Source of the DNA: an uncultured Gemmatimonadota bacterium
GTDB lineage: Bacteria > Gemmatimonadota > Gemmatimonadetes > Gemmatimonadales > Gemmatimonadaceae
Length of the DNA: 13,776 bases
Direction of reading: 5' to 3'
NCBI GenBank assembly: GCA_946480295.1
Contig: CAMLIT010000113.1
Coordinates: 1-13,776, forward strand
Shown: positions 1,000-6,250 of the stretch, in pieces
Position numbering within the stretch: position 1 is the stretch's first letter
How the letters are laid out: the number at the start of each line of letters is the position of its first letter
The notes under the pieces: generated by a model
What the model saw: the letters and a program-made list of their open reading frames with translations, nothing else
The model's database searches: none
What the model was told of the DNA's origin: nothing
Translations under genes and position numbers: made by a program

Positions 1000-1065
1000 A
1001 CTTTCGCGTTTTTCGGGGGGGGTAACGCAGATGTAATGCGAACGGCTGGATTCCTTGCGCCCCCC

Positions 1066-1726
1066 TCACGCTGCAGTGGTTTGCTCCTCGTGCCTGGTCT
1101 CGCGGAGCTTGGTCAGCTCGCTCACAACCGCCCGCATCGCCTTCTCGTCGGTCTGCTGATACGCGCTCTGGAGCACGCGCGCGTCCAGCCAGGCGCCGGC
1201 CTTCGCGACGTCCTGTACGACAAGGACTTCCGCTCAGCCGCCCATTTCCGGCTGTAGGGATGGAAGCTCCCACTGTCGACGAATCGAGATTGGCTGCGGG
1301 CTCAGCGCGCGCGAGGAGCTTCCGCGCATCGCGGGATGACGGGCTCGGGATCTTGTCCTTGCCCGATTCGATCTCCTCTTTCGCGCCTGGGGCGGGGAAG
1401 AACGGCCAGTCGCTGATGGGGGGGACGTGGGGATGGAGTCGATGTCGGCGCGCACCTCTTTGCCGATAGGGAGCCAGCCGCCCCTCCGCTCCTTTTCGTG
1501 CTCCGGGCGCTTGTAGATCCGGCCGTGCGGGGCCGCCGGTCGCTCGCCGATCGACGTCAGAGGCTCGTAGAGCGCGGATCGCAGACACCCGCCACCCCGA
1601 CCCCGCCGCGAGCGCCATAAAGCGCAACAGCCCCTGCGGGTCGGCATCACCGGCATTGGCGACCACCGCCGGGAACCGATCATAGGCCGCGATTGATCGG
1701 CGCGGATCGTTGCTCTTCGGAAGCCA
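1066..1726 (-). pseudogene. Tyrosine recombinase (phage-type integrase), frameshifted remnant
   Basis: No single frame is open, but pieces in all three minus frames join into the C-terminal catalytic part of a tyrosine recombinase. In order they are AAYDRFPAVVANAG, then LALAAGSGWRVSAIRALRASDVD-like Arg-I region (about 1580-1680), HGRIYKRPEHEKERRGGWLP, ISDWPFFPAPGAK, ARKLLARAE, FHPYSRKWAAERK, and finally LDARVLQSAYQQTDEKAM with the nucleophilic tyrosine. The last piece ends at a TGA at 1066. Joining them needs at least four frame changes. The HxxR box reads HPYS, so the second catalytic arginine also appears substituted. The N-terminal core-binding half is missing or unrecognisable. It points at the adjacent tRNA att site, as an island integrase would. 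Identification rests on motif order, without a database search. Confidence 0.82.
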
Positions 1727-1743
1727 CTAGCCAGTCATCGGAG

Positions 1744-1990
1744 TCAGGGGCGCTCGAGCACGCGCGCATCATCGCTGAGGAGCGCGAGGCTGTGCGCCGC
1801 ATAGAGCAATTTTCCTCGACACGAGCACCAGCGCCGGCATGGGCGGTCGCGCGTGATTGAGACGGAGCCGGCGGACGCTCTCGCGCCTGAGCCGCACCGC
1901 GTTCCGGGCATCACACTCCATCCCCAGCCACGCGTCGGGAGCGTTGAGGAGTACCTCGACTCGGTGACGTACACGCGGCGCCTCGCCGAC
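1744..1990 (-). pseudogene. Unidentified decayed coding sequence with one frameshift
   Basis: Two overlapping minus frames each show protein-like sequence that breaks off and continues in the other. One carries LLNAPDAWLGMECDARNAV and LRRESVRRLRL. The other carries GKLLYAAHSLALLSDDAR and stops at 1744. Read across one frameshift near 1810-1825 they give a plausible continuous polypeptide. I do not recognise the family. It may be a separate small gene rather than the lost N-terminus of the neighbouring recombinase, because it ends at its own stop. Confidence 0.35.
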
Positions 1991-2287
1991 GCGGCGAGAG
2001 ACGGGCGCAGCCCGACTACAAGGCCCGCCGGGCTTCAGCCAGGCGTGACTTGTACGTTTCGTTTCGGCTGGGGTGCCCGGAGCTACGGCTGGAGGGGCTC
2101 TCAACAGACGGAATTCTAAGAATTGGCTCATAATGGTGAGCACGCTTATTCTCGCTCGGTAGCGACACAGCCAACACGGGAGGCAGTTGAGTTCGACTCC
2201 TGTGCGCCCATAAGGCTTGGTAGCAATTCCGGTACATTGCGTGGAGGGGGTAGTGGGTTTACGTTTACGTATACCTGAGCGTCGAAC
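1991..2287. other. Non-coding stretch upstream of the TAC operon
   Basis: No convincing gene is present. The stretch holds a short inverted repeat at 2112-2124 (AATTCT-a-AGAATT), a tRNA-like string near 2140-2212 that does not fold into a cloverleaf, and the palindromic operator candidate at 2257-2274. It is richer in A+T than the flanks and probably contains the operon's promoter. Confidence 0.45.
2257..2274 (+). promoter_or_regulatory. Candidate TAC operator overlapping a -10 element
   Basis: The 18-bp interrupted palindrome GTTTACGTTTACGTATAC has a perfect core of TACGT-tt-ACGTA at 2260-2271. Outer GT and AC pairs follow one mismatched step on each side. TATACC (2270-2275) overlaps its right arm and could serve as a -10 box. 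No good -35 was found at normal spacing. It ends 13 nt before the toxin start, where a HigA-type repressor would be expected to bind and autoregulate. Position and symmetry are seen; binding is inferred. Confidence 0.4.
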
Positions 2288-2677
2288 GTGGTAGACCGAA
2301 CGATCATCGCGTTCGGCGCAAGGCTGGTGGTCAGATACATGCGATTCCGCAATGCCTTTCCAGCGGAGGAGTTCTACCGCGAAGCTGATAGGCCGGATCG
2401 TGTCCGCTTCGATGCGTTGGCGAGGTACTTGGCAGAACACGGTCGGCTACCAGACGACTCGCACGGTCACTTCTTGAAGGGGCGGTATTCAGACGTGTTC
2501 GAGTTGAAGCCTCGTGGCTCGCGCTTCTTCGGCTTCTTCTACGAACGCAATTTCTACGTGACCAACGGTGCGCCAAAGAAGAAGAAGAAGGAGCAAGAGG
2601 CTGACTACGAGATTGCCTCGACCATGAGAAGGGACTTTCTGGCGCGCATCAGTCGGTCCAGGCGAAAGAAGCGCTGA
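2288..2677 (+). CDS. higB: RelE/HigB-type toxin of a TAC module
   Basis: A 129-residue basic protein of the phage Gp49-like/HigB toxin group. Family members are ribosome-dependent mRNA endonucleases that block translation. Visible features are an N-terminal strand (RLVVRYMRF, 12-20), the PAEEFYREA helix start (25-33), the FELKPRGSRFFGFFY strand pair (71-85), a lysine run 97-101 and a C-terminal helix ending in DFLARISRSRRKKR. Length and order match HigB toxins of TAC operons such as M. tuberculosis Rv1955. The GTG at 2288 is preferred over ATG 2339 because the later start would remove most of the first beta strand, although neither has a strong ribosome binding site. The antitoxin follows after 28 bp. 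Toxicity is inferred from family and context. Confidence 0.82.
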   Translation: MVDRTIIAFGARLVVRYMRFRNAFPAEEFYREADRPDRVRFDALARYLAEHGRLPDDSHGHFLKGRYSDVFELKPRGSRFFGFFYERNFYVTNGAPKKKKKEQEADYEIASTMRRDFLARISRSRRKKR

Positions 2678-2705
2678 TCTCAATACCTTCGGAGGAGCGG
2701 CGATT

Positions 2706-3137
2706 GTGACCAGCTTCAATTTCAATAACCTTTGCGAGCGGCTCCCTTCGCCAGAGGAGCAGCGCCTTTATGCTCGCGACATGTGCATGTTGTCGGTGAC
2801 CGGGGACGTGATTGCCGCGCTTGAAGAGGCAGGAATGTCCCGCGCCGAGCTTGCCGAGCGTGTCGGACGCACAAAGGGATTCGTGTCGCAAGTGTTGAGT
2901 GGGTCGAGGAACATGACTCTCGGCACCCTCTCAGACATGCTATGGGCCGTCGGCAAGGAAGTCCGCGGTTTGACCCTTCGCCCCCTCGGCGAAATGCGGG
3001 TGCCCAGCGAGGCCATGGATGCCTGGCTTGAGAGCGAAGGGCGGATCAGGCAGGCCCACATTGGGGCTGCGATCTCTTCAGACAATGACTTGGGTGAAGA
3101 TCTGGAGAGTATGAGCGAACAGCCGCTCGCGGCTTAA
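2706..3137 (+). CDS. higA: XRE/HigA-type antitoxin with C-terminal extension
   Basis: A 143-residue protein expected to bind and neutralise the upstream toxin and to repress the operon. Residues 33-90 form an XRE-family helix-turn-helix; SRAELAERVGRTKGFVSQVL (45-64) covers the two central helices. Residues 95-143 are a polar, acidic tail absent from minimal HigA proteins. In SecB-dependent TAC systems such a tail is the chaperone addiction segment that the partner SecB recognises, so residues roughly 98-125, including W107, are candidates. The GTG start is fixed by GGAGGAG at 2691-2697, eight bases upstream. The stop overlaps the chaperone start by one base (TAATG), implying translational coupling. 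The HTH is certain; the tail's role is inferred. Confidence 0.87.
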   Translation: MTSFNFNNLCERLPSPEEQRLYARDMCMLSVTGDVIAALEEAGMSRAELAERVGRTKGFVSQVLSGSRNMTLGTLSDMLWAVGKEVRGLTLRPLGEMRVPSEAMDAWLESEGRIRQAHIGAAISSDNDLGEDLESMSEQPLAA

Positions 3138-3640
3138 TGGTCGACCCTACTAAGCAGCCCGGCCTGCGGGTCGAGCAGATCTTCCTGGTGGAGTCTCAGT
3201 TCAGCCACCGCGAAGATTTCCTCGCACTGCCGTCGGACACGAAGCCTGCGGAGGCGGGGATCGAAGTCTCTTTACGACTCCTGGGAGAACCTTCCGGGCG
3301 CGGTGCGGGGCTCTCGTTGCGCGTCGAATCGAACAACGATTCGACTGCGCTATACCGCTTTGTCGTAGAGATGATGGCGCTCGTCGCTGCGGAGCCGGGG
3401 CAGGAAAACATTCCTCCGGCTCAATACGTCATGGAGGCAGGGGCGACACTCCTCTTCCCCTTTATTCGCGAAACGCTGGCGAATCTCTCGATGCGGGGAC
3501 GGTTTGGCCCGATATGGTTGAAGCCGTTCAACGTAAGGATCGCTATTCAGCAATTGACGCGAGACTCGGAAAACAGAAAGGACCTCGGCCGCGCAGCGAA
3601 GACAAAGTCATCGGCTCGGGCGAAACGTAGCGGCCATTAA
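3137..3640 (+). CDS. SecB-like chaperone of the TAC module
   Basis: A 167-residue SecB-fold protein. The N-terminal strand carries QIFLVESQFSHRE (14-26). The middle has YRFVVEMMALV (73-83). The best-conserved part is LLFPFIRETLANLSMRGRFG (105-124) followed by PIWLKPFNVR, corresponding to the conserved C-terminal helix and lid region of SecB. Canonical SecB holds secretory precursors. SecB-like proteins encoded next to HigBA (for example M. tuberculosis Rv1957) instead protect the antitoxin from aggregation and proteolysis. The gene is the third of a toxin-antitoxin-chaperone operon, with its ATG overlapping the antitoxin stop. The C-terminal 25 residues are lysine- and arginine-rich. Family assignment is from motifs seen by eye; the TAC role comes from gene order. 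Confidence 0.85.
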   Translation: MVDPTKQPGLRVEQIFLVESQFSHREDFLALPSDTKPAEAGIEVSLRLLGEPSGRGAGLSLRVESNNDSTALYRFVVEMMALVAAEPGQENIPPAQYVMEAGATLLFPFIRETLANLSMRGRFGPIWLKPFNVRIAIQQLTRDSENRKDLGRAAKTKSSARAKRSGH

Positions 3641-3943
3641 CCCGCCAGCAACCGGATCGCGACGCCTTGGCGTTTGTCTACGAAATATCCGGTCTCCAGC
3701 GCAACGCACGCGACTCGAGATCAATATCGTACCGGGCCAATATTCGCGAGCGAGGCGCCAGGGGAGGGCCGGTCGGCGTCGGCTGACCTCCAACCCACGC
3801 TCGCGCGTCCACGTGACCCAGAGAGCATCCTGCGCGTGCTGGACGTGCGCCGTACGGCCGTCCAGAGGCCCACCGAGCGACATCACGGGCTCGTCGGTAG
3901 GCTGGTAGGCTGCTCTGGCGTCGGCCCCCCAGTCCGCCGACTG
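3641..3943. other. Gap with traces of decayed minus-strand coding sequence
   Basis: No intact gene is visible. On the minus strand two frames look protein-like in succession. One has ALWVTWTRERGLEV and LAREYWPGTILISS; after a frame change near 3715 the next has ACVALETGYFVDKRQG ending in AIRLLAG at a stop at 3637-3639. The family is not recognised. No terminator hairpin was found after the chaperone gene. Confidence 0.35.
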
Positions 3944-4210
3944 CTACGGTGAACTGCTAATCCTGCTCCTCCCGTCCACGAAGCGCTTCGCTTGCTCGAA
4001 CATGATCCCTGCCCGGGGCTCCAGGCCGAGAAAGGAATCACCGCGCTTCAGGCTAGGCAGCCCCGGCTCGTATGGCTCAATCGTGATCCACAGCGTCGCG
4101 TCGCCGAGCTCCTTGAGCGTGAATGCTGTTCGGTTGCGGTTTGTCTCGGCTCGATCAGACGCGGTGAGATCGTCCGGGCCGAGGCCATCGGGCATGGCGT
4201 TATCAGCCAC
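3944..4210 (-). CDS. Hypothetical small protein
   Basis: An 88-residue protein with no recognised family. The middle (about residues 28-75) alternates hydrophobic and polar residues, with TAFTLKELGDATLWITIEPY and RGDSFLGLEPRAGIMFEQAK, and looks like a small beta-rich domain ending in a helix. The last dozen residues (GRSRISSSP) look less protein-like, so the native C-terminus may have been lost by frameshift. The start is a GTG at 4210 that overlaps the stop of the gene upstream on this strand by 8 nt; an ATG five codons in is possible. There is no signal peptide or membrane segment. Confidence 0.55.
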   Translation of the reverse strand: MADNAMPDGLGPDDLTASDRAETNRNRTAFTLKELGDATLWITIEPYEPGLPSLKRGDSFLGLEPRAGIMFEQAKRFVDGRSRISSSP

Positions 4211-4445
4211 GTGTATTCCGTGTTGGATGTGCGATCAAGGTGACGCGGCCAAACGACTCCAGAACCCAGTCACGACGGGCGACTGGGAGCCGGTATTGGC
4301 CGGCGAGGAGACGGGAGTCCGCCCGACCGAACATGCACGCTATCTCCTGCTCGACCGTGAGCCGCTCACGCGGTCGCTGCTTCTCGTAATCGTACACCGG
4401 CGAAACGGCCGCCGGCACATCGGCCCGAGCGCCAGGAGGCGCCAC
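4203..4445 (-). CDS. Hypothetical small protein, coupled to the next gene
   Basis: An 80-residue frame whose residues 17-78 look genuinely coding, with YDYEKQRPRERLTVEQEIAC, LLAGQYRLPVARRDWVLESF and RVTLIAHPTRNTRG. It starts at a GTG (4445) with only a weak ribosome binding site. The first 15 residues are low-complexity Ala/Pro, so the true start may be further in or upstream by frameshift. It overlaps the 88-residue gene by 8 nt (GTGGCTGA), which suggests the two form a coupled unit. No family is recognised. Confidence 0.45.
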   Translation of the reverse strand: MAPPGARADVPAAVSPVYDYEKQRPRERLTVEQEIACMFGRADSRLLAGQYRLPVARRDWVLESFGRVTLIAHPTRNTRG

Positions 4446-4502
4446 GCTTGGCCGCGCGCGGCCGGACGAAGTTCTGGGCGCGCATCGGTAGAACGTTCAT
4501 AG

Positions 4503-4511
4503 TGCGATAAT
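4503..4511 (+). promoter_or_regulatory. Possible extended -10 promoter for the 294-residue gene
   Basis: TGCGATAAT fits an extended -10 (TGn plus GATAAT). It lies about 110 nt upstream of the TTG start at 4624. The perfect palindrome GAACGTTC (4491-4498) sits just upstream, where a regulator could bind. No clear -35 was found. Confidence 0.35.
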
Positions 4512-4623
4512 CAGCGCAGACCAAGCGGAGCCCTACGGCGGTCTCGTGCTGCGGTGCGTTGCCTCTGAACCTGTCAGACGCGGTGGTTCAGGTGATCCCA
4601 ACTCTCGGCACAGGAGGGCGTCG

Positions 4624-5508
4624 TTGACCCCGGAGCAACTGTTTTTTTGGGCGATGGTGGACTTGGATGCGTGCCTCCGCACCAAGTTTCACTACCACCA
4701 GATGCGCATGGCCGCTCTCCTACGGCTTCTGCTCACGGATAAGAACGAGCCGCCCTTGCTCGATCAGCTTCGGCCGCGTTGGTCCTTCCACCCACAATTC
4801 CGAATTGTGGACGAGATGCTTCCACAGGTTCCACCGGACTCACCGTCGCTGCCCGGCCTGATACTCGACTTCAGCCAAGTTTTCATCGATCCGGAGTTGC
4901 TCCCAGCGGGGGCTCGACCAAGCGTCGAGCTTGGGCTGGATCAGTTCCTGTGTCGCGTCGCATGCCGAGCAAACGGGATTGACATAACGGTGCGGGACAT
5001 CATCGACAACGTGGGCTACGTCTCAGGTGTGATGCACGCCGGAAAACCAAATCTGAAAAAGCGTCCAGGCGATGCCGCACTCCTTCAGGTTAGACAGTCA
5101 GTACGAGGGTTCGGCAATACGGAGCCGGCCCTTGCTCTGCTGAAGCAGATTGGCGCCGTCGTGCGGCGAGGAACGTCACCTCTGCTGGCGAAGTTGAATG
5201 ACCTAATGGCTCGGGGATTCCCGCTGCCGCGCTTTGACTACGGCGGAGAGATTCAGAAGGCACGGCAACCCGATGGATCGTGGCATCTACACGACGTTGC
5301 TTACGGGGACATCATCGTGACCGAAGGCCGGGATGTGCCGGGACCGACGTTCATTGTTCGACCGGGGGCTCCGTCGCCCTGTCGGTACGTGCAGTTCGAA
5401 ATCGCTGGACAGATATGGCGCGCCTATTCACCCCATCTGCCGTCAATCGCTCACGCGGACGCGGACACCCTCGCTGATATCCTTCGAACCGCGAGGCGCG
5501 TGGCCTAG
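4624..5508 (+). CDS. Uncharacterised 294-residue island protein
   Basis: The largest intact gene of the island; I do not recognise it. The TTG start is favoured over a longer frame from 4546 because AGGAGG (4612-4617) lies six bases upstream. The N-terminal third is helical, with QLFFWAMVDLDACL and MRMAALLRLLLTDKNEPPLL. The middle carries ITVRDIIDNVGYVSGVMHAG (about 147-166), then GNTEPALALLKQIGAV. The C-terminal third looks beta-rich, with YGDIIVTEGRDVPGPTFIVR and YVQFEIAGQIWRAYSP, and ends in a helix. There is no signal peptide, no membrane span and no catalytic motif I can name. It may be a two-domain protein. A short palindrome followed by five T (5502-5516) overlaps its stop and could weakly terminate. 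Position beside a TAC module suggests accessory or defence cargo, by association only. Confidence 0.8.
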   Translation: MTPEQLFFWAMVDLDACLRTKFHYHQMRMAALLRLLLTDKNEPPLLDQLRPRWSFHPQFRIVDEMLPQVPPDSPSLPGLILDFSQVFIDPELLPAGARPSVELGLDQFLCRVACRANGIDITVRDIIDNVGYVSGVMHAGKPNLKKRPGDAALLQVRQSVRGFGNTEPALALLKQIGAVVRRGTSPLLAKLNDLMARGFPLPRFDYGGEIQKARQPDGSWHLHDVAYGDIIVTEGRDVPGPTFIVRPGAPSPCRYVQFEIAGQIWRAYSPHLPSIAHADADTLADILRTARRVA

Positions 5509-5620
5509 GCCTTTTTGCCAGTCAGCCTCGTGCGGGTGAGCGCCGGTGCCAACTGGCAGCTAAGCCGCATGCAGTGGTCGGTGCACTCGGGTGAGCGAGC
5601 ACCCATGTCACGGCGCGCCA
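5509..5620. other. Short non-coding stretch inside the island
   Basis: Nothing beyond the T-run just after the 294-residue gene. With the LuxR remnant (5621-5833) and the gap to the right repeat (5834-5986), it makes up a region of about 480 bp without an intact gene. Confidence 0.4.
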
Positions 5621-5833
5621 CTAGCCCCGGAACTCTCCAAATGGCGGCGCCTTCTTGGCGATGCAGTAGTCGTGAACGCGCGCCGTCTTTGCCCAGATGC
5701 CCAAATGGGCGGCGATAGTCTTCGGCCGCGGGCCTCGCGCTACGCGTCGGGCGACGCCCTGCTCTGGCGGCGTGACACCGTCCCAGGCGCCTTGCGGCGG
5801 CAGGTCCCGAACGTGGCCGCCCGTTCTAGGTGG
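5621..5833 (-). pseudogene. LuxR/GerE-type helix-turn-helix remnant
   Basis: An open stretch between two stops with no usable start codon. It translates to a recognisable LuxR-type DNA-binding domain: VTPPEQGVARRVARG, then KTIAAHLGI, KTARVHDYCIAKK. These match the family pattern LTxRExxVxxLxAxGxxxKEIAxxLxIxxKTVxxHxxxIxxKL, with substitutions at usually conserved places (for example P for R and G for E near the start). The N-terminal regulatory domain is absent. It is probably a decayed transcriptional regulator of the island and unlikely to be made, unless expressed from a frame joined upstream. Confidence 0.6.
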
Positions 5834-5986
5834 TCAAGCCGCCACGGTCATAACCAGGGTAGTGGAGGTGTAACGCAAGGTTAAGGCGGAAGGCCGGCAA
5901 CGGCCGACAGTAGCTAGCCTGTAGACCGACGATTGAGGCGCGCTGTAGAGGGATAACCGACCGATGGACTGTTGGTTTTGTCGCCC

Positions 5987-6036
5987 GCGCCTGCTTTGCA
6001 AGCAGGAGGTCACCGGTTCGATCCCGGTACGCTCCA
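5987..6036 (+). pseudogene. tRNA-Ala 3' half (remnant displaced by island insertion)
   Basis: 50 nt identical to tRNA-Ala positions 909-958: anticodon arm with TGC, variable loop, T arm and 3' acceptor strand through the discriminator A. The 5' acceptor strand and D arm are absent and replaced by unrelated sequence, so no functional tRNA can fold. This is most simply the original 3' end of the chromosomal tRNA, pushed 5.1 kb away by the integration. Confidence 0.93.
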
Positions 6037-6077
6037 CTCGAGATCGCATGGCCCGGCCGCCCGCCACGGCGCGCCGG
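5987..6077 (+). repeat. Island-flanking direct repeat, right copy (att site)
   Basis: Partner of 909-999 (offset 5078), 90 of 91 positions identical. It marks the right boundary of the island. Sequence beyond 6077 should be the ancestral downstream flank of the tRNA-Ala gene. Confidence 0.92.
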
Positions 6078-6080
6078 GCC
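6050..6080 (+). terminator. Hairpin, probable ancestral tRNA-Ala terminator
   Basis: Inverted repeat GGCCCGGC (6050-6057) and GCCGGGCC (6073-6080), a perfect 8-bp GC stem with a 15-nt loop, lying 13 nt after the tRNA remnant. Only a weak T-rich tail (gtcgtgtgttc) follows. The left repeat copy has the same left arm but a mismatch in the right arm (A1000), followed instead by a stronger T-run (gtttttc, 1008-1014). Confidence 0.55.
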
Positions 6081-6250
6081 GTCGTGTGTTCGGGAGACGT
6101 CGTCCTCGACGCCCTCTCGCCACCGCCTCGTCGAGCTTGCCCTCGCCCCGTCCCCGAGGCACTCTCCGAGGCAGGGCCACCGCGCCCGCACACGCCGCCG
6201 CCCGCCGTCGAGCGCCGGCGTTCATCGACCCCTCGCGCGTCGGAGTGATC
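6081..6250. other. Non-coding flank after the island
   Basis: GC-rich sequence without a convincing gene or regulatory site. Frames spanning it on the minus strand read back through the tRNA remnant and are artefacts. Confidence 0.4.

Follow-up and report, generated by a model that had tools for sequence, protein, structure and literature searches.

A 13,776-nucleotide stretch of DNA from an uncultured Gemmatimonadota bacterium (assembly GCA_946480295.1, contig CAMLIT010000113.1; hereafter the window) carries at positions 2288-3640 what is very probably a HigBAC-type toxin-antitoxin-chaperone (TAC) operon, situated on a tRNA-Ala island. This reading is based on which genes are present, how they are ordered and overlap, the families and predicted folds of their products, and the island. 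A preliminary description had proposed a TAC operon with a SecB-like chaperone, and the present analysis supports that interpretation with small amendments. The features of the operon are as follows.

2288-2677, + strand: toxin of Gp49/HigB type (RelE superfamily); PF05973, 25.9 bits; candidate catalytic residues E72, K74, R79 and K97.
2691-2697, + strand: ribosome-binding-like GGAGGAG, 8 bases upstream of the antitoxin GTG.
2706-3137, + strand: antitoxin of 143 aa with an XRE helix-turn-helix (HTH; residues 37-78); PF01381, 23.3 bits; 26 relatives.
2964-3134, + strand: antitoxin tail after residue 86, a candidate chaperone-addiction (ChAD) region with an MDAWLE motif (W107); putative function.
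3126-3134, + strand: Leu-Ala-Ala codons at the antitoxin C-terminus, a candidate ClpX degron.
3137-3640, + strand: SecB-like chaperone of 167 aa; PF02556, 28.7 bits; structure model pLDDT 87.8; matches to 5mtw and SecB structures.

The listing of open reading frames (ORFs) places toxin, antitoxin and chaperone adjacent on the + strand, exactly where three closely packed genes had been described. The toxin (GTG start, 129 aa) and the antitoxin (also GTG) are separated by 28 nt, and the ATG of the chaperone shares one base with the antitoxin stop (TAATG), the overlap reported earlier. Profile searches, proposed in the preliminary description, place all three proteins above the Pfam gathering scores for Gp49 (cut-off 23.9), HTH_3 (23) and SecB (26), in agreement with the families it had named. 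A consensus scan of 1900-4000 returned no promoters and no terminators. In PADLOC the antitoxin comes nearest to PDC-M64B/C, with 34.5 bits at best. In the protein database there are 18 other SecB-like relatives, 26 other antitoxin relatives and two other toxin relatives.

By its Gp49 profile match, its RelE/HigB fold and its basic candidate catalytic residues, the first protein belongs to the HigB/Gp49 class. Its structure model (pLDDT 92.4) matches the solved HigB of S. pneumoniae and HigB1 of M. tuberculosis, and K74, R79 and K97 are invariant across 12 aligned first-gene products, the window toxin included. The GTG start is supported by one database protein, P0025, whose residues 1-42 align to toxin residues 1-42, Met to Met, with 45% identity, since the two N-termini match start to start. 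P0025 (17 member sequences) itself resembles the first 38-42 residues of a toxin fused to an antitoxin, as after an in-frame toxin deletion.

The third protein, on whose kinship with SecB the preliminary description had made its interpretation depend, matches the family in both profile and structure comparison, and is a SecB family member by sequence and by predicted fold. In Foldseek its model matches Rv1957 (5mtw), the chaperone of the M. tuberculosis TAC, before any other structure; by Foldseek E-value Rv1957 stands ahead of the solitary SecBs, though not by VIA Z. It falls far short of the NCBIfam equivalogs for solitary export SecB, scoring 27.2 bits against a cut-off of 143 for the best of them (NF004392) and 19.1 against 102.8 for TIGR00809. 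As a single-protein query the chaperone matched nothing in viral_contigs, plasmids or phages, and plasmid searches with its relatives L002 and P0005 likewise found none. A chaperone-profile scan recovered one relative in genome_contigs (L001, from a Deltaproteobacteria metagenome-assembled genome) and three in viral_contigs (L002-L004). The relatives L001 and L002 lie directly downstream of MqsA genes (PF15731, 37.0 and 46.3 bits; cut-off 30), so this chaperone group pairs not only with XRE antitoxins but also with MqsA; the first genes at these two loci are not confirmed as MqsR, with no match at L001 and 16.0 bits (below 26.2) at L002.

The XRE antitoxin with a C-terminal tail was likewise confirmed: the HTH_3 match stops at residue 78 of 143, leaving 65 residues beyond it, the C-terminal extension typical of TAC antitoxins. 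MDxWL[DE], the tail motif, or a close variant of it is present in 14 of the 18 antitoxin relatives P0021-P0038, with the Trp in 13. Among 17 of these (the truncated P0037 omitted), 13 end in [AV]A, that is, Ala or Val followed by a terminal Ala, and all 17 have a final Ala or Val; the ending recurs in 4/8 of the more distant relatives (P0039-P0046). One relative, P0034, is labelled Gemmatimonadetes. In M. tuberculosis HigA1, according to the excerpts of the literature used here (as for all published work cited by PMC number below), Trp108 is buried in the chaperone and the ClpX signal is the final Val-Ala. W107 and -LAA of the window antitoxin would be the obvious counterparts of these, although the W107 motif is only suggestive as a chaperone-contact site of the tail.

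The preliminary description had also placed the operon on a tRNA-borne island. This is borne out by the following features, which delimit a segment of some 5 kb that looks foreign to its surroundings.

886-959, + strand: tRNA-Ala (TGC), the likely integration target; called by ARAGORN; Rfam tRNA 68.3 bits.
909-1012, + strand: left direct repeat, attachment-site-like, comprising the 3' part of the tRNA-Ala and 53 nt beyond it.
1013-5986, no strand: island body; GC 0.626 between the repeats vs 0.710 outside.
5987-6090, + strand: right direct repeat, beginning inside a weaker second tRNA match.

The second tRNA match (5966-6036) scores 40.6 bits with Rfam and has no ARAGORN call. The two repeat copies are 104 nt long, 5,078 bp apart and 94% identical (98/104), and all but one of the six mismatches fall within the final 14 nt. 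Third-position GC is 0.67-0.72 in four island frames vs 0.93-0.96 in four flanking genes. Going by the usual layout of tRNA islands, the copy that arrived with the island would be the one adjoining the intact tRNA. No integrase was found, and the scanned frames of 960-2290 match no family in Pfam or PHROGs; a tyrosine-recombinase end seen by eye in pieces of 960-1734 was dropped, as it matched nothing in either collection. Another island ORF, 4546-5508 (320 aa, or 293 aa from 4627), matches nothing in Pfam, NCBIfam, PADLOC, PHROGs or plasmids. The longest contig listed for each of the three TAC proteins is 5,076 bases, two short of the repeat spacing, and possibly represents either the island in free form or an assembly that breaks at the repeats.

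How such an operon might act is suggested by the characterised TACs, from which chaperone dependence, ClpXP degradation, mRNA cleavage, XRE autoregulation and a benefit in phage defence would be expected here. The SecB-like chaperone would hold the C-terminal tail of the antitoxin and mask the predicted ClpX signal -LAA, until a client such as a phage protein, or secretion stress, drew it off. ClpXP would then remove the unshielded antitoxin, leaving the HigB-type toxin free to arrest the cell by cleaving mRNA at the A site of the ribosome; the XRE domain of the antitoxin would autoregulate the operon. Chaperone addiction is the safest of these predicted functions. Phage defence, as opposed to general stress arrest or island maintenance, is the least certain, and we consider it only somewhat probable. 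In the CmdTAC defence system, ClpP-dependent loss of CmdA is required, the T4 capsid protein binds CmdC, and extra CmdC abolishes defence (PMC11618068, PMC9519451). The lambda major tail protein fires HigBAC (PMC11980606). Grafting experiments showed that the chaperone and tail can be transferred together between HigA, MqsA and HicB antitoxins and still work (PMC5105189).

To place the -LAA end in a wider setting, we compared antitoxins called by three profiles (XRE, MqsA and HicB) and grouped into 35 clusters at 70% identity, with L005-L008 omitted as duplicates and the window antitoxin kept out of the counts. Where the third gene is SecB-like (A1- or A4-type), 15 of the 18 clusters, which span all three families, have antitoxins with the [AV]A end; the misses end in -RTA (L034), -CYG (L054) and -SYG (L056-L058). 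Where no third gene matches A1, A4 or A5 at E 1e-3, the ending is found in 0/11, a group that takes in loci with an unrecognised next gene, including L060, faintly SecB-like by eye, and L074, which matches A5 at 0.002. Behind an A5-type third gene, whose kinship to SecB is unproven, the count is 1/6. By family, clusters with and without a SecB-like gene gave 6/7 vs 0/5 for XRE and 7/8 vs 0/6 for MqsA; HicB gave 2/3 with the gene and has no control group. The family names held when checked (MqsA PF15731, 5/5; HicB PF05534, 3/3). Outside the cluster table, as they had no profile call, are L042 (XRE, -AFAS, a miss) and L004 (a 156-aa gene, -KAA, a match). The p-values are descriptive only, because the [AV]A rule was defined after the ends had been inspected; the clusters moreover share ancestry, and XRE and MqsA are not fully independent because an HTH domain is common to both, whereas HicB is independent.

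An artefact of gene overlap was rejected as the cause of these ends, because junctions and last codons vary and because overlapping first-gene ORFs do not have the ending: it occurs in none of the upstream first-gene ORFs at 20 loci, although at 18 of these the ORF runs into the following gene. The background in long frames (>=250 codons) is 0/98. A later set of 11 plasmid and phage loci, arranged by eye into six groups (H17, H19 and the repeat hits H2-H7 left out), tells against a strict rule: only three of the six groups end in [AV]A (-GVA, -EVA and -QVA), the others ending in -IAV, -LTA and -NYG(Y). The [AV]A ending is thus common beside SecB-like genes and not universal. A second ending, -CYG, -SYG or -NYG(Y), also recurs beside SecB-like genes (L054, L056-L058, L083-L085) in the HicB and MqsA families. 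The A5-type third genes (L012, L013, L016, L020-L030 and L032) encode 132-140 aa and overlap the XRE antitoxin genes that they follow on viral contigs; they have no SecB match, the antitoxins before them mostly lack the [AV]A end, and they may be diverged chaperones or a different third component.

The presence of -LAA in the window antitoxin and the association across clusters and later groups could reflect a protease signal. We tentatively propose, at somewhat less than even confidence, that shield and degron form a transferable cassette, in which XRE, MqsA and HicB antitoxins may repeatedly have gained a small-residue C-terminal ClpX signal once paired with a SecB-like gene, the window -LAA being one instance. 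If so, any client that drew the chaperone away, including phage capsid or tail proteins, would fire any toxin. The pattern of terminal residues widens an observation made on one protein, the Val-Ala of HigA1, to a testable rule over three antitoxin families. In the literature as excerpted we met no statement of a C-terminal rule across TACs; Texier 2021 and Mets 2024, known to us through other papers, may state it.

Several observations weigh against the TAC reading of the window operon. The HTH_3 cut-off is cleared by 0.3 bits only. Among the six of the 12 aligned first-gene products examined with Pfam, the window toxin and P0048 pass Gp49, L034 falls below the cut-off, and L009, L014 and L023 have no Gp49 match. 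PADLOC makes no TAC call, giving the chaperone 12.5 bits to PD-T4-9_C and the toxin no match. The nearest chaperone relatives with readable neighbours (L001-L003) do not stand beside HigBA, and an XRE antitoxin together with this chaperone clade is found only in the window and, weakly, at L034. Finally, scans of island frames with Pfam, PADLOC and PHROGs brought no additional phage or defence gene to light.

That last observation also favours a TAC that is of use in some way other than phage defence: it would halt the cell when protein export or folding is under stress, or simply keep the island in place through addiction. To this explanation we give a substantial minority share. It accords with the classical proposal of the M. 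tuberculosis TAC as a protein-export sentinel (PMC4257090, PMC5105189), and addiction would pay here because the segment between the direct repeats could be lost. On the other side, phage are restricted by three TACs, CmdTAC, MqsRAC and HigBAC (PMC9519451, PMC11980606); the location of many relatives on viral contigs says little in this respect, because the collection consists of viral contigs only.

Could the third gene instead be an ordinary export SecB or general chaperone that lies behind a HigBA pair by chance? The SecB fold and PF02556 match would suit this, as would the report that TAC chaperones are able to stand in for the SecB of E. coli (PMC5105189). However, the protein is far below every listed NCBIfam SecB equivalog cut-off, its gene overlaps that of the antitoxin, its relatives L001 and L002 stand behind MqsA genes, and Rv1957 outranks the solitary SecBs by Foldseek E-value, if not by VIA Z, which together make such a coincidence highly improbable. 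It is also unlikely, if less so, that the operon is decaying along with its island and no longer active. The lack of family matches in the scanned frames of 960-2290, the missing integrase and the toxin stump that P0025 appears to join to an antitoxin point that way, but all three frames of the window operon are open and full length, and the candidate catalytic positions, tail motif, C-terminal end, ribosome-binding-like site and TAATG overlap are retained.

The TAC operon of the window is essentially an ordinary further member of its kind; what is new is the fold-level match to the M. tuberculosis system, the defined island, the MqsA-linked chaperone relatives and the terminal-residue pattern. 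We met no paper that joins a gemmatimonad, toxin-antitoxin systems and SecB. The M. tuberculosis TAC, HigB1-HigA1-SecB(TA) (Rv1955-Rv1957), shares 10-18% structural-alignment identity with the window proteins, the tail sequences not being part of the comparison; the window operon differs in sitting on a tRNA-Ala island. It represents a further TAC, on a small tRNA-flanked island, with fold matches to that characterised system in two of three proteins. The HigBAC system of E. coli C496 is alike by description (PMC11980606), with a HigB-type toxin, a HigA-type antitoxin and a SecB-like HigC, and is triggered by the lambda protein mentioned above; this likeness rests on description, sequences not having been compared. 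CmdTAC, which is the same system as PD-T4-9, and MqsRAC similarly have a SecB-like chaperone third (PMC9519451). That the relatives of the window chaperone at L001 and L002 follow MqsA genes agrees with the published idea of a chaperone and tail that pass from one toxin-antitoxin pair to a different one. In contrast to the Gp49/HigB toxin of the window, which has no PADLOC match, CmdT is an ADP-ribosyltransferase and MqsR belongs to another toxin family. Bipartite Gp49-XRE (HigBA) pairs have the same toxin and HTH antitoxin families without a chaperone; the five XRE clusters in which no third gene is recognised lack the [AV]A end, and their upstream genes are not shown to be Gp49 toxins.

The two remaining viral chaperone relatives lie in other settings. 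At L003 (IMGVR_UViG_3300037722_000772, 4959-5456) the relative (37% identity) stands alone on a phage contig with head genes nearby, in the order Mu F-like head gene, DUF4055 gene, chaperone relative and IS1-type transposase. No antitoxin is recognised there, and XRE and MqsA profiles find no match on the 22.8-kb record, which is possibly partial. Because surplus chaperone turns off TAC defence, according to an excerpt of PMC9519451, the L003 gene might serve in counter-defence, or it might encode a capsid chaperone. L004 (IMGVR_UViG_3300013901_000019, 4121-5411) is a possible TAC, in which a distant but clear SecB gene (46.3 bits) lies 3' of the 156-aa gene of no recognised family ending in -KAA and of a first gene that resembles HEPN (PF05168, 17.7 bits, short of the cut-off of 22).
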